64,000 nucleotides of DNA from Eudorina sp. 2006-703-Eu-15. Its lineage: Eukaryota; Chlorophyta; Chlorophyceae; Chlamydomonadales; Volvocaceae. Both the position numbers and the translations under genes were made by a program. The stretch spans positions 807,375 through 871,374 of the forward strand of contig BDSI01000010.1 of NCBI GenBank assembly GCA_003117195.1. Direction: 5' to 3'. Numbering within the stretch: position 1 is the stretch's first letter; every line of letters begins with the position of its first letter. Under the pieces are notes generated by a model that worked only from the letters and a program-made list of their open reading frames with translations, did not search any database and was not told where the DNA came from. Shown one piece after another: positions 49,859 to 59,790 of this stretch.

Positions 49859-51872
49859 AACGGGTGTGTTTCGGAAAGAAACCCGACCGACCGACCGACC
49901 GACCGACCGACCGACCGACCGGGGTGTGTGTGTCACAGCTGCTTGCAGGAGAGACCTCCCCATGCATTCCGACGGCGTCGAGGGCGGGTGGGTGAGTGGG
50001 CGGGTGGGTGGGCGCGCCGTGCGTGGTTCCTGCCTGTCGGGGAACATATATGGCAGATGTCCCGCGGCGGCATCGCCGAACGCCGTGTGTTGCGTCGTGT
50101 CATGTGATGCGACGTGATGTGATGCGTTGTGGTGTGGTGGGTGTGAAAGGAGGTCGCGCGGACATGTGATGCGTGTTGGCCATTGACGTATCTCTTTGAG
50201 TGTGGATGGTGACCTGTGATGGTGAAGGGTGAGGGTGGGTGTGTATGTGCATGCGATATAGGTGAACAGATTTGCTCCGTATGTACCAAGGCCGTGCTAC
50301 CGTGCAACAAGCCGTACTGTGTCGTACCGTGCTTGTTTCAGCACATGTACGGCGAGGTTATGGCACCATGTGGGAAACGCCGGACTGGTTCGGTGTAGGG
50401 TGGTCGGACCGTTGCCTTTCGGATACGGGAATGAGTACGGCGGTTGGCAGGGTTGTTGTCGCCGGCGTCATGTACGGCGGCACATGGAGGCAAGGCGAGC
50501 GGCTTTCTTCGGACTGGTCGCGCAAGCTGGAGGCGGTTGTCGTGCGGGGTGATTGTCGTTGGCGATTGTCGTGCTTGGGTCGTACAATAGTTGGAAACGG
50601 TTTTCCGTTGGTTGGTTCTTCGTTGAGGCGGCATGCGGGCGTGTGTCTGCCGCCGCAGGTGGTTGCGAAACGGTTGTCCATGCTTTGTCAGCCGCTCTCC
50701 CCGTCTTTACACAGCCATGGAGGACATTTGGCAAGGTCGTCCGGATATGTCCACGTCGTCTTGACAGGCCGCTGGGCTCGTTCACGGTGCGAAGACGCTG
50801 CCTCTGGCGTCGGATCCTGTGTGGTATGCGGCCGGCTTATATTCGGATTGAATAAATGAATTTACAAATAAAATAATCGGCCAATTTCACTTGCAGCTTC
50901 ACGGCAGCCCATGTGTAAGTCGGGCAACTAGTAGCAGTAGTAGTAGTACCGTTACAGTGTGGATAGGCTTCCGGGCCCTGTCTAAGGGTTTATGTCGCGG
51001 TTTTATATGATGCTATAGGACACCTTCAACCATCATCACACCGAACCTACGCCATACAAACCGAGGGTCCAAGGCGGTTGATCCTGCCAACTAAGGATCC
51101 CACCTCATCCATTCACCCGCACATCCGTAGAGACAGAGGGTTCAGCAATCGCCACCAATCCAGCGTGCGAATCTCAATCCATCAACTGTGATCTCAACTC
51201 CACATCTCAGCAGCTAGCCATAATCAAGGTCCCATTCCGGAGGGTGACGCCTTATCATTAGGCAGTCGGGCAACTGCGCCAGACGGCGCATTGCTGTCAT
51301 CACCTGTTTCGAGTGGCAACGGGCCACCGCCCAACAGTGGCCTGGTGGGGGCGGACATGTCCCCATGGCCGGACCATCCACCTCACAACCACGCACCTCA
51401 AGTGCCGCAACGACCATCTCAACTGCCGCTGCAACCTACCACCTCAACTGCCGCAACAACCACGCGGCTGGGTAGGTAGGTATGTGCGTCGCAATTTGCC
51501 TTGCTTGAATTGGCCACAAGCTAAGCCCGTGGCCTGCCTACCTGAATTGACCACAAGCAAGTTCAAGTCGCATGATAATCAGCTGCTGCGCATTTCGGTG
51601 CGTGGGCATGTGACCGGGCCGTTGAATTCGAACAGTCGTAGTTGACAAACGGCCTCGACAACCAAGGTGATTCCAAACTTACTTTGCACGGCTGCAATCA
51701 GCTTAGCCAAATAACACGCGACAATGCAAACCGTTGGCCATCGAACGCGCTGCTGTCCTGCAACGCTGTTCGCAAACGGAATTGTTCCGAAAAAGGCCGG
51801 GATATGTCTGCCCTGCTCCAGCAGCTCTTATTAAATGTCATCCAATTATAATATTCTTTGCATGAAGGAACG
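49859..51872. other. Intergenic region between S28 peptidase and PNGase F-like gene
   Basis: Starts with GTGTGTTTCGG and a (CCGA)n run (49887-49920) directly after the peptidase stop. The remainder has no convincing ORF. A TGTAA at 50914-50918 could be an algal polyadenylation signal but is 1 kb from the stop. The right half should hold the promoter of the next gene; no TATA box stands out. Confidence 0.55.
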
Positions 51873-55890: not shown

Positions 55891-57587
55891 CAGCGGCGAA
55901 AGAAGGAGAAGTGGAGGAAGGGCAGCAGGAGGGGCAGGCGGAGGAGGCGCAGGAGGAGGAGGAGAGGACTCCGGAGCTGGGGGCGGAGCAGCGCTGCGGG
56001 TTTGAGCTGGGGCGCTGGGCGACGCCCTTCCGTCGGCGGGTGGGCCGCTGGCTGACGGATGTGAGCCCGCTGATGGGGCTGCTGGGGGACGGCGGCGGCA
56101 GGTGCAGTCGGGGCGGCTGGCATCGCCGGGGGCCGGCCGGGGCGGCAAGTGCTTGTGTGCTTGTGTGCTTGTGGACATGCGGAGACCCGGGCTCAGGATC
56201 TGCACGCATCGATTCCAGCTATGCAAGATGTGAATCCTGTTGCTTGCGCTGGCACCTCCTGTGCAACACGCAACACGCGCATCTTTGATGTTTGTGTTTG
56301 TGTGCTGCGGATACCGTGTTTGTGCTTCTGTGTATGCATGCGCGTATGTGGGTGTAGCGGAAAACCCGGCCGATGAATGCCTTAGCCCCGCTTGCCTCGG
56401 CTCGTTTTCGTTCTTCGAATTCTGTAGGTGCAAAAACAATGTGTTTTCGGCTGTGGCGCGTGTGGCGCGTGTGGCCAGGGTGTGGGACTGCGGGTGACTG
56501 CGCGTGCGCCTGCTCTCGCCGCAGGTGCTCGTTCACGATCCAGACGGCGCCCTGGGCGGACGGGAATTGGACCGCGAGTCTGTCGCTGGTGCTCGTACGA
56601 CATCCCCCTGCACGGCAGACAGCGGACAGCCTGTACGGCAGCGGCGGCGGTGGCGGCAGCGCAAGTACGGGCGGGCTCGCCGTTGGAGCGCGGCCTTCCC
56701 TGGAGCTGGGCCGCGAGGGTGCAGCGGCGGGTGGCCTAGGGGACGCGCCGCCGCAGCAGCAAGTGCAGCAGCAGCAGCAGTTGCCTTCCAATGAACGGGC
56801 TGTGGCAACAACGGAAGGCGGAGGAAGCAGCGGTGCGGAAAGGTACAGGCGTAGCCTGGCCGCGGCTGCTGCCGCCATTGCTACGGGCCGTATCCGGGTG
56901 GACACTGCAGCTTCAGGTGACGCCGCCGCCGCTGCAGTGGCGGCGCAGGGTGCTACAGGTGCTGCAGCTGGTACAGGTACTACAGGTGCTACTGGTGCTA
57001 CAGCGGCCTCGGCCTCCGTAGTGGCGGGCAATATCGCGACGGGCGCAGATGCGCTGCGGAGCGTGGCCGTACAAAAGCGCCCCGTTGCCGTGGTACCGCT
57101 GTTCGACAGCGCCGTCTTCGACGCGTCGTACAACCGGGACCGGGCGGCCGTGACGCTCTCGACGCCGCCCGACATCCGCGCCGCGGCCGTTGTGTCGTAC
57201 ATCACCGGGCATGGCTCCGACACGAAAGGCTGTGGCGAATTCTGCCCCACCTCACACCATCTGTTCGTTAATGGCCGCGAGGTTGCCGTACTCAACTTTA
57301 CGACAGCGGGTACGGAATGGGGATGTGCCGATGCCGTGCTGTACGGCGGCGTGCCTAACCAGCATGGCACGTGGTTCTACGGGCGCGGCGGGTGGTGCGA
57401 CGGCGCGGCCGTCGACCCATGGGTCGTGGACGTGACTGATGTGCTGAGACCCCCGGGATCTGCCCTGAACAACACGATCTGGATCAAGGGACTGTACGGA
57501 GATCTTCACGAACCGGAAGATCCGCGGGAGGGGACGATGCCAGGGTACATCATGATGCAGAGCGTGCTCGTCCTGTACGGTGATTAG
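51873..57587 (+). CDS. PNGase F-like peptide-N-glycosidase with membrane anchor and PA-like region
   Basis: Seven exons: 51873-52598, 52947-53116, 53301-54027, 54282-54632, 54919-55110, 55623-56101, 56525-57587; 3,708 nt (1,235 aa), all in phase. Residues 1-40 carry a hydrophobic signal anchor (ASLFVLSPLVLLLSTSAIL). A Gln-rich region follows, then a conserved block (VPVLVTLLNPQDPF, AAAEYLFVPNVYSP). A PA-like segment is CSYRDILLNL joined across an intron to QRQGALGVIFVASPGNEV. The C-terminal third resembles the two PNGase F lobes: LLLDLSLGCPG, CPAWDHM (Asp767), FELGRWATPFRRRVGRWLTDV, then AAVVSYITGHG, CGEFCPTSHHLFVN (Glu1120) and GTWFYGRGGWCDGAAVDPW. PNGase F hydrolyses the Asn-GlcNAc bond of N-glycoproteins; two catalytic acids are kept, while the third (Glu118 of the bacterial enzyme) seems to be Ala. 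Poly-Gly and acidic inserts lengthen it. First TGTAA after the stop is at 58204. Confidence 0.85.
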
Positions 57588-58078: not shown

Positions 58079-58670
58079 CGTACACCAAGCGGGACTGCGG
58101 AAGCGTCTAGTTAGGTATGTGACAGTCGACCCGCGGGTCATCGACTGGTTGATGACGGCGGCTGTATCTGCGGGGTACTCGATCCATGCGCCCCTCGCCG
58201 CACTGTAAGCGGTTGACATGCGCTGAAGCCATTTATCAATAAACGAAGGATCCAGAATAACGTGCATGGACGCGCCTTTATGGGACAGATCCAAGCCGGC
58301 AGCGTGCGTCAGCAAGTGCAACCGCCAGGCCGCGACGGCACCCTGCCCTGCCCTGCCCTGCCAGCTAGTCTGGCCTTAATATCCAGACAGACATTTTTAA
58401 TTTCAGGGACCGGCGGCAAACCGGACAATCCGTGCGGTGCACAGCTGCGCAGGGGATGCGGTTTGTGGGATGCGCGCACCTCGCCGTGCTGTGCCATCGG
58501 TTCATCTTGGTGGTGCTGCCGCACCGCATGGCTGGAGACTTTGGAGCTGAACGGCCGGTGCACGACCCGATCCGCTGCGAAGGAAAGCAGCTCCGTGTTC
58601 CCGCGGTTCGAATCCCCGCTCCCTCCCCGCCAATTGATTCGGCGGGTCTGACGCGGTTTCCAGGAGAGGC

Positions 58671-58792
58671 AATCCTGGCGCGCTGCTAACCTGGTGTGTT
58701 GGCCGGTATGGCTGCATGACTTCCCCCGCGGGCGATGTAGGATGGGTGCGCAGTCCTTGGTAGGGGTTAGGATGAGATGAGGCGCCTACGAG
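58671..58792 (+). repeat. 122-bp direct repeat, copy A
   Basis: From AATCCTGGCGCGCTG to GAGGCGCCTACGAG, aligning without gaps in length to 59669-59790. Together the copies bracket 0.9 kb containing the permuted tRNA. The sequence to its right (to about 58852) also matches 33661-33741 on the other strand. Confidence 0.9.
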
Positions 58793-59374: not shown

Positions 59375-59382
59375 ATATATAT
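59375..59382 (+). promoter_or_regulatory. TATA-like box upstream of the permuted tRNA
   Basis: ATATATAT inside GATATATATC, about 50 bases before the 3' half of the permuted tRNA. Plant and algal tRNA genes often have such a box a few tens of bases upstream. Confidence 0.4.
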
Positions 59383-59432
59383 CTTTTAAGATTGGCACTT
59401 TTGACATCTTCGTCAATTAACCCCAAGGACGA

Positions 59433-59515
59433 AGGTGAAGATTGTGGGTTCGAGTCCCACCGTGATCGACCTGTTCGGGTCGCGTGGCCTAATGGATAAG
59501 GCGTCACCCTCCGGA
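59433..59515 (+). tRNA. Circularly permuted tRNA-Arg(CCG)
   Basis: The 3' half comes first: A38 at 59433, anticodon-stem GGTGA 59434-59438, variable AGATT, T-arm GTGGG-TTCGAGT-CCCAC (59444-59460), acceptor CGTGATC 59461-59467, discriminator G 59468. After a 9-nt spacer comes the 5' half: acceptor GGTCGCG 59478-59484, TG, D-arm GCC-TAATGGATAA-GGC (59487-59502), G26, stem TCACC 59504-59508, loop CTCCGGA 59509-59515 with anticodon CCG. The acceptor stem pairs 7/7 with two G-U pairs, the anticodon and T stems 5/5. Rejoined between positions 37 and 38 it gives a normal 73-nt tRNA close to the plant nuclear tRNA-Arg type. Outer flanks AACCCCA (59419-59425) and TGGGGT (59517-59522) pair, forming a bulge-helix-bulge-like junction. 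The B box precedes the A box. Known permuted tRNAs (red algae, prasinophytes, nucleomorphs) have this layout. Confidence 0.88.
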
Positions 59516-59541
59516 ATGGGGTCTTGTTGCACTGGTGCTTG

Positions 59542-59545
59542 TTTT
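59542..59545 (+). terminator. Pol III TTTT terminator of the permuted tRNA
   Basis: First run of four T after the 5' half, 20 bases beyond the pairing flank. Confidence 0.5.
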
Positions 59546-59668
59546 ACGGTAAACACTGATTTTGCAGGTATGCAATGCACACGGAAGCTGCGTGCAGAGG
59601 ACAGATCCGGCACGTCCATGCAAGGCTCTCCCAGCCATCAGCCCTCCACCTGCGCGAAGGAATTTGAC

Positions 59669-59790
59669 AATCCTGGCGCGCTGGTAACCTGGTGTGTTGG
59701 CTGATATAGCTGTATGATCGCCCCCGGGGGCGATGTAGGATGGGTGCGCAGTCCTTGGTAGGGGTTAGGATGAGATGAGGCGCCTACGAG
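59669..59790 (+). repeat. 122-bp direct repeat, copy B
   Basis: Second copy of 58671-58792, about 85-90% identical by eye. It lies between the permuted tRNA and the LINE remnant. Confidence 0.9.

Follow-up and report, generated by a model that had tools for sequence, protein, structure and literature searches.

A probable type II circularly permuted tRNA-Arg(CCG) gene in the volvocine alga Eudorina sp. 2006-703-Eu-15

The window, that is the whole stretch of 64,000 nucleotides of Eudorina DNA that was analysed, contains a tRNA-Arg(CCG) unit at 59433-59514 on the + strand, in which the 3' half of the tRNA precedes the 5' half. This swapped order is that of type II circularly permuted tRNA genes. 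The unit and the elements surrounding it are as follows.

59375-59382, + strand: TATA-like ATATATAT, 50 nt before the 3' half, a putative promoter element
59420-59425, + strand: first arm of an outer helix, ACCCCA, Watson-Crick complementary to 59517-59522
59427-59429, + strand: GGA, possible partner of U33-C34-C35 (59510-59512), with a putative role in splicing
59433-59468, + strand: 3' half of tRNA-Arg(CCG), 36 nt, positions 38-73 (A38 to the discriminator G73)
59469-59477, + strand: linker from the tRNA 3' end to the 5' end, 9 nt, ACCTGTTCG
59478-59514, + strand: 5' half of tRNA-Arg(CCG), 37 nt, positions 1-37 (G1 to G37)
59511-59513, + strand: anticodon CCG, within the 5' half
59517-59522, + strand: second arm of the outer helix, TGGGGT, Watson-Crick complementary to 59420-59425
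59542-59545, + strand: TTTT, a possible RNA polymerase III stop

Alignment to linear genes placed the junction of the halves at 37/38, with an ambiguity of one base: A38 can be either A59433 or A59515, and thus only one of the two belongs to the 73-nt tRNA. The first-pass annotation had given the same limits for the 3' half and the same start for the 5' half; its end of the 5' half, 59515, was moved to 59514. G73 is not directly followed by CCA. The linker, with its 9 nt, lies inside the range of 1-74 nt found in the accessible text of a review (PMC3978253).

When the two halves were rejoined, a 73-nt tRNA was obtained in which all 21 of 21 stem pairs are formed. The acceptor (7 bp), anticodon (5 bp) and T (5 bp) stems pair as announced by the first-pass annotation, and the D stem adds 4 bp. 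The claim that all helices pair only after rejoining is valid for the acceptor and anticodon stems; it was too strong for the T and D stems, since each of these lies inside one half. The canonical bases U8, G18G19, U33, U54U55C56 and A58 can be read from the sequence of the window copy. No tRNA was detected when the unrearranged 64-kb window was analyzed with ARAGORN, nor in an Rfam search of the window at the gathering score. Upon rejoining, ARAGORN called tRNA-Arg(ccg) for this copy and for a second permuted copy on another contig (C20, see below), in keeping with the expectation that linear tRNA finders would miss the gene. Furthermore, a covariance model for swapped-order tRNAs (R2), built from eight non-Arg tRNA genes of the Eudorina genome, gave 52.5 bits for the window copy (E 9e-17), 12.5 bits for the next-best match in the window and 44 bits for the C20 copy; the alignment behind R2 is shifted by one column for three of its eight rows (His, Glu and Asp) in the D and anticodon arms, an error expected to make these scores too low. 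On the basis of the 21 pairs, the R2 score and the ARAGORN call, it was concluded that the proposed permuted tRNA-Arg(CCG) gene is real.

The TATA-like element upstream and the T-run downstream had both been reported at first pass; they are present, neither falls inside the linker, as expected for type II, and they may serve as promoter and terminator. The 70 nt upstream of the window copy have a GC content of 0.34, and equally GC-poor 70-nt stretches make up 1.1% of the window. Of the proposed flank pairing, AACCCCA with TGGGGT, 6 bp are formed, without the first A; a run of 6 bp arose in 1.4% of 20,000 trials with shuffled flanks. Type II junctions have the form of a bulge-helix-bulge, relaxed (hBH) in green algae. 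For the bulge-helix-bulge-like junction claimed here, the 6-bp outer helix was retained and a relaxed form is plausible; in the central helix, only 3 of 4 pairs are formed.

When 59415-59530 was folded, the minimum free energy (MFE) structure consisted of the permuted cloverleaf together with the 6-bp outer helix that closes it. The fold containing the central helix, in which U33-C34-C35 pairs with GGA and a C-C mismatch is left at 32, lies 1.3 kcal/mol above it. In this modelled geometry, the central helix would comprise 32-35 and cleavage would take place in the bulges G36 G37/A and G A/A38 (slash, putative cut). The fold energy was no better than that of shuffled sequences, 121 of 200 folding at least as well in one test and 71 of 200 for 59415-59530. 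Among 104 combinations of transcript ends, 27 gave an MFE fold with all 21 pairs; 23 of these 27 include both arms of the outer helix, compared with 54 of the 104 combinations overall. With the tail included (59415 to 59545), a different fold wins.

The 116-nt unit was then compared with the whole assembly (181,203,499 bases, 3,033 contigs). In addition to itself and to many half matches to linear genes, two sequences were recovered.

C20:857466-857582: second permuted unit, 77% identical to the 116-nt window unit, on another long contig
51225-51263, - strand: truncated remnant, consisting of the 5' half from the D stem on and the start of the downstream flank

The remnant lies within the window, 8 kb from the gene, and matches 93% over 40 query bases; neither the 3' half nor the linker was seen there, and its flank weakly resembles that of the window copy (80 of 2000 shuffles as good). 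In the second permuted unit, as in the window copy, all 21 stem pairs are intact. The two copies match in 67 of 73 exon columns versus 24 of 44 other aligned columns (Fisher P 5e-6). The six exon differences include one two-sided pair change at 3-70, and random substitution with six differences kept all pairs in 7% of trials. Both copies share 26G, 29A, 41T and 43A, bases found in neither type of linear gene. Their flanks are only weakly similar (65 of 2000 shuffles as good upstream, 734 downstream, 683 for the linkers), so that a single origin of the two units rests mainly on the shared exon bases. The stretch of 70 nt upstream of the C20 copy has the same GC content, 0.34. This copy is weaker in several respects: A58 is changed to G, the outer run is 2 bp (84% of shuffles as good), no TTTT was found within 150 nt, and the MFE fold has a linker hairpin in place of the acceptor stem. 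This hairpin of 8 bp (L002:1550-1564 and neighbours) is made by the linker with adjoining tRNA bases and competes with the acceptor stem.

Other features were observed in the neighbourhood. Two pieces of a dispersed repeat, 93% identical to each other (58670-58792 and 59668-59790, + strand), flank the permuted gene, with a sharp start at 59668. At least 41 matches to this repeat occur in the genome (best 40 of 1225 candidates scored) and none in the 3-kb locus around the C20 copy; the idea that the pieces are terminal repeats of a tRNA-carrying element was therefore dropped. A T-arm-like GGTTCGAATCCCCGC is present at 58605-58619 (+ strand), about three such matches being expected by chance, and no tRNA was found there. 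At 56358-57587 (+ strand), a reading frame encodes a peptide-N-glycosidase F C-terminal domain (Pfam PF09113); among named proteins, it is closest to those of Volvox africanus (75% identity), Volvox reticuliferus (72%) and, over 63% of the query, Chlamydomonas incerta (70%), which indicates a volvocine host, and it has an 85% match to an unnamed protein.

Linear tRNA-Arg(CCG) genes exist in the same genome. A search with the rejoined tRNA recovered two intronless genes, on C24 and C5, which are identical over 73 nt, 88% identical to the query and called Arg ccg by ARAGORN. On C68 and C793, at least 30 further matches span both halves and at least three cover the 5' half alone; the counts are lower bounds, since the best candidates alone were scored. 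The halves of the permuted gene are 92-95% (5' half) and 86-89% (3' half) identical to the linear genes. Thus, the permuted gene is redundant with linear copies and is not the sole source of tRNA-Arg(CCG) in the genome. Such linear genes are the first of two findings that, taken together, the first-pass annotation had held against its own proposal, and the dispensability that follows from them was counted against the explanation preferred below.

The loci on C68 and C793 (L003-L008, L021-L023) are tandem arrays of Trp, Arg(CCG) and Thr tRNA genes, with introns in the Trp and Arg genes. The array Arg(CCG) copies examined carry an intron of 13-14 nt at 37/38, lie close to Trp and Thr tRNA genes and are mostly 2.5-3.5 kb apart. 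Like the window copy, they encode the same tRNA, with 5 exon differences, and are interrupted at 37/38; they differ from it by their linear order, by the lack of an A+T-rich upstream stretch and by an altered T loop in 4 of 7 distinct copies (of 30), C56 being changed to T in three and a T added to the T loop in one, while three are intact. The 70 nt upstream of the intronless genes have GC contents of 0.29 and 0.27, against 0.59-0.60 for five distinct array copies; in this respect, the permuted copies resemble the intronless genes and not the array copies. No similarity beyond shuffles was detected between the upstream flank of the permuted unit and the array intron (1780 and 1289 of 2000).

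Nine differences separate the window copy from the intronless gene. Six of them make up three two-sided pair changes (3-70, 13-22 and 29-41), the one at 43 turns a G-U into an A-U pair, and 26 and 44 are unpaired. Random substitution with nine differences from the intronless gene kept all pairs in 2.1% of 20,000 trials; with five differences from the array gene, the value was 12%. Together with the 7% obtained between the permuted copies, these odds are a modest sign of function.

Permuted tRNA genes are a known, rare kind. In the accessible text of the 2014 review (PMC3978253), 34 are listed, in a red alga, prasinophytes, a nucleomorph and an archaeon, the red algae, prasinophytes and nucleomorphs having been named at first pass; type II is the commonest class in green algae, and Arg(CCG) is absent from the list. 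As in Eudorina, the type II genes given there for Ostreococcus, Micromonas, the Bigelowiella nucleomorph and Cyanidioschyzon have the 3' half first and the junction at 37/38. The linkers in its table measure 5-64 nt for type II (9 nt in Eudorina), and for Cyanidioschyzon, whose circle pathway is known, it describes a TATA-like upstream element and a downstream T-run, as at the present locus. The Eudorina gene differs from these type II entries by its isoacceptor, Arg(CCG), and by its volvocine host. Linear genes with the same anticodon coexist with it, a feature read for the present genome alone. The same text lists Chlamydomonas reinhardtii without permuted tRNA genes despite its tandem intron-containing tRNA genes, and treats as an open question whether permuted genes arise recently from such genes.

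No report of a volvocine permuted tRNA gene was found in open-access text, as the first-pass annotation had suspected, and the volvocine Arg(CCG) gene is a member of the known kind for which we found no earlier report. Auxenochlorella belongs to the Trebouxiophyceae. According to the part of PMC12633428 that is accessible, it too has permuted tRNA genes and is thus, like Eudorina, a green alga outside the prasinophytes, in another green-algal lineage. For other isotypes, no swapped-order pair was present among the matches listed for initiator Met (39 of 39 candidates scored) or Cys (best 40 of 161 candidates scored), and the swapped-order Arg pattern had 0 matches in viral contigs. Initiator-Met-like tRNA matches on C363, C231, C1261, C2201 and C11 form regular arrays, about 2.26 kb apart.

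The explanation that we prefer, with a probability of about 0.68, is that the unit is a genuine type II circularly permuted tRNA-Arg(CCG) gene, nuclear and volvocine, that matures through a circle and duplicates the product of the linear genes. The swapped arrangement, the intact cloverleaf, the outer pairing, the second permuted locus and the structure-preserving differences between copies are observed; transcription, splicing, the circle and a function of the window locus are predicted from these sequences. Transcription by RNA polymerase III and maturation via a circular RNA are probable. The polymerase would start downstream of the A+T-rich element and stop at TTTT, and the transcript would adopt a cloverleaf form that the outer helix closes. 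Cleavage by the tRNA splicing endonuclease about the relaxed bulge-helix-bulge would follow, 37 would be ligated to 38, and from the resulting circle RNase P and tRNase Z would excise the linker and release an ordinary tRNA-Arg(CCG), the same product as that of the linear genes.

It is rather unlikely that the unit is instead a tRNA pseudogene in permuted form, which arose by rearrangement or retroposition, lacks expression or processing and persists by chance. Linear genes suffice for the tRNA, the truncated remnant is evidence that such pieces are duplicated and degenerate, and the weak points of the C20 copy and the unimpressive fold statistics against shuffles agree with this view, as does the 12% pair retention from array gene to window copy, the closest comparison. 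Against it, 21 of 21 pairs are intact in both permuted copies, the exons are conserved while the flanks and linker are not, and an A+T-rich stretch lies upstream at both loci.

Very improbable is the alternative, already raised at first pass, of two neighbouring linear tRNA genes broken by deletion or assembly so that the 3' half of one precedes the 5' half of the next. A swapped-order covariance model of ten rows (R1) did assign up to 40.5 bits to adjacent linear tRNA genes, the 3' half of one being matched with the 5' half of the next, as for Arg and Thr in L021. However, both halves in the window are parts of a single tRNA and form base pairs between them, and the window copy reached 77.5 bits with R1, of which it is itself one row. 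A second permuted unit exists on another long contig, and within 300 nt of both units neither an upstream 5' half nor a downstream 3' half was found beyond shuffles (318, 113, 453 and 454 of 500); for these reasons, the broken-assembly reading was judged unlikely. Chance resemblance, finally, is practically negligible and was ruled out by the R2 score (E 9e-17) and by the 92-95% (5') and 86-89% (3') identities of the halves to linear Arg(CCG) genes.

A genuine permuted tRNA-Arg(CCG) gene adds the volvocine lineage to the known hosts of permuted tRNA genes, points to genes missed by linear tRNA finders in the Eudorina genome, and shows one tRNA encoded in three forms within a single genome, by intronless, by intron-containing tandem and by permuted genes. 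The recent origin of permuted genes from intron-containing tandem genes thereby becomes directly testable in Eudorina. Descent of both copies from one permuted ancestor would mean that selection acted on the exons in their swapped order; without a common permuted ancestor, permutation would have occurred more than once. It is quite doubtful, but conceivable, that the copies form a small, old family kept under selection despite the intronless and intron-containing linear genes. In that case, permutation would have arisen independently in the Chlorophyceae, a class for which the accessible text of PMC3978253 lists Chlamydomonas without any permuted gene, and the permuted form or its circular RNA would do something beyond what the linear genes do.
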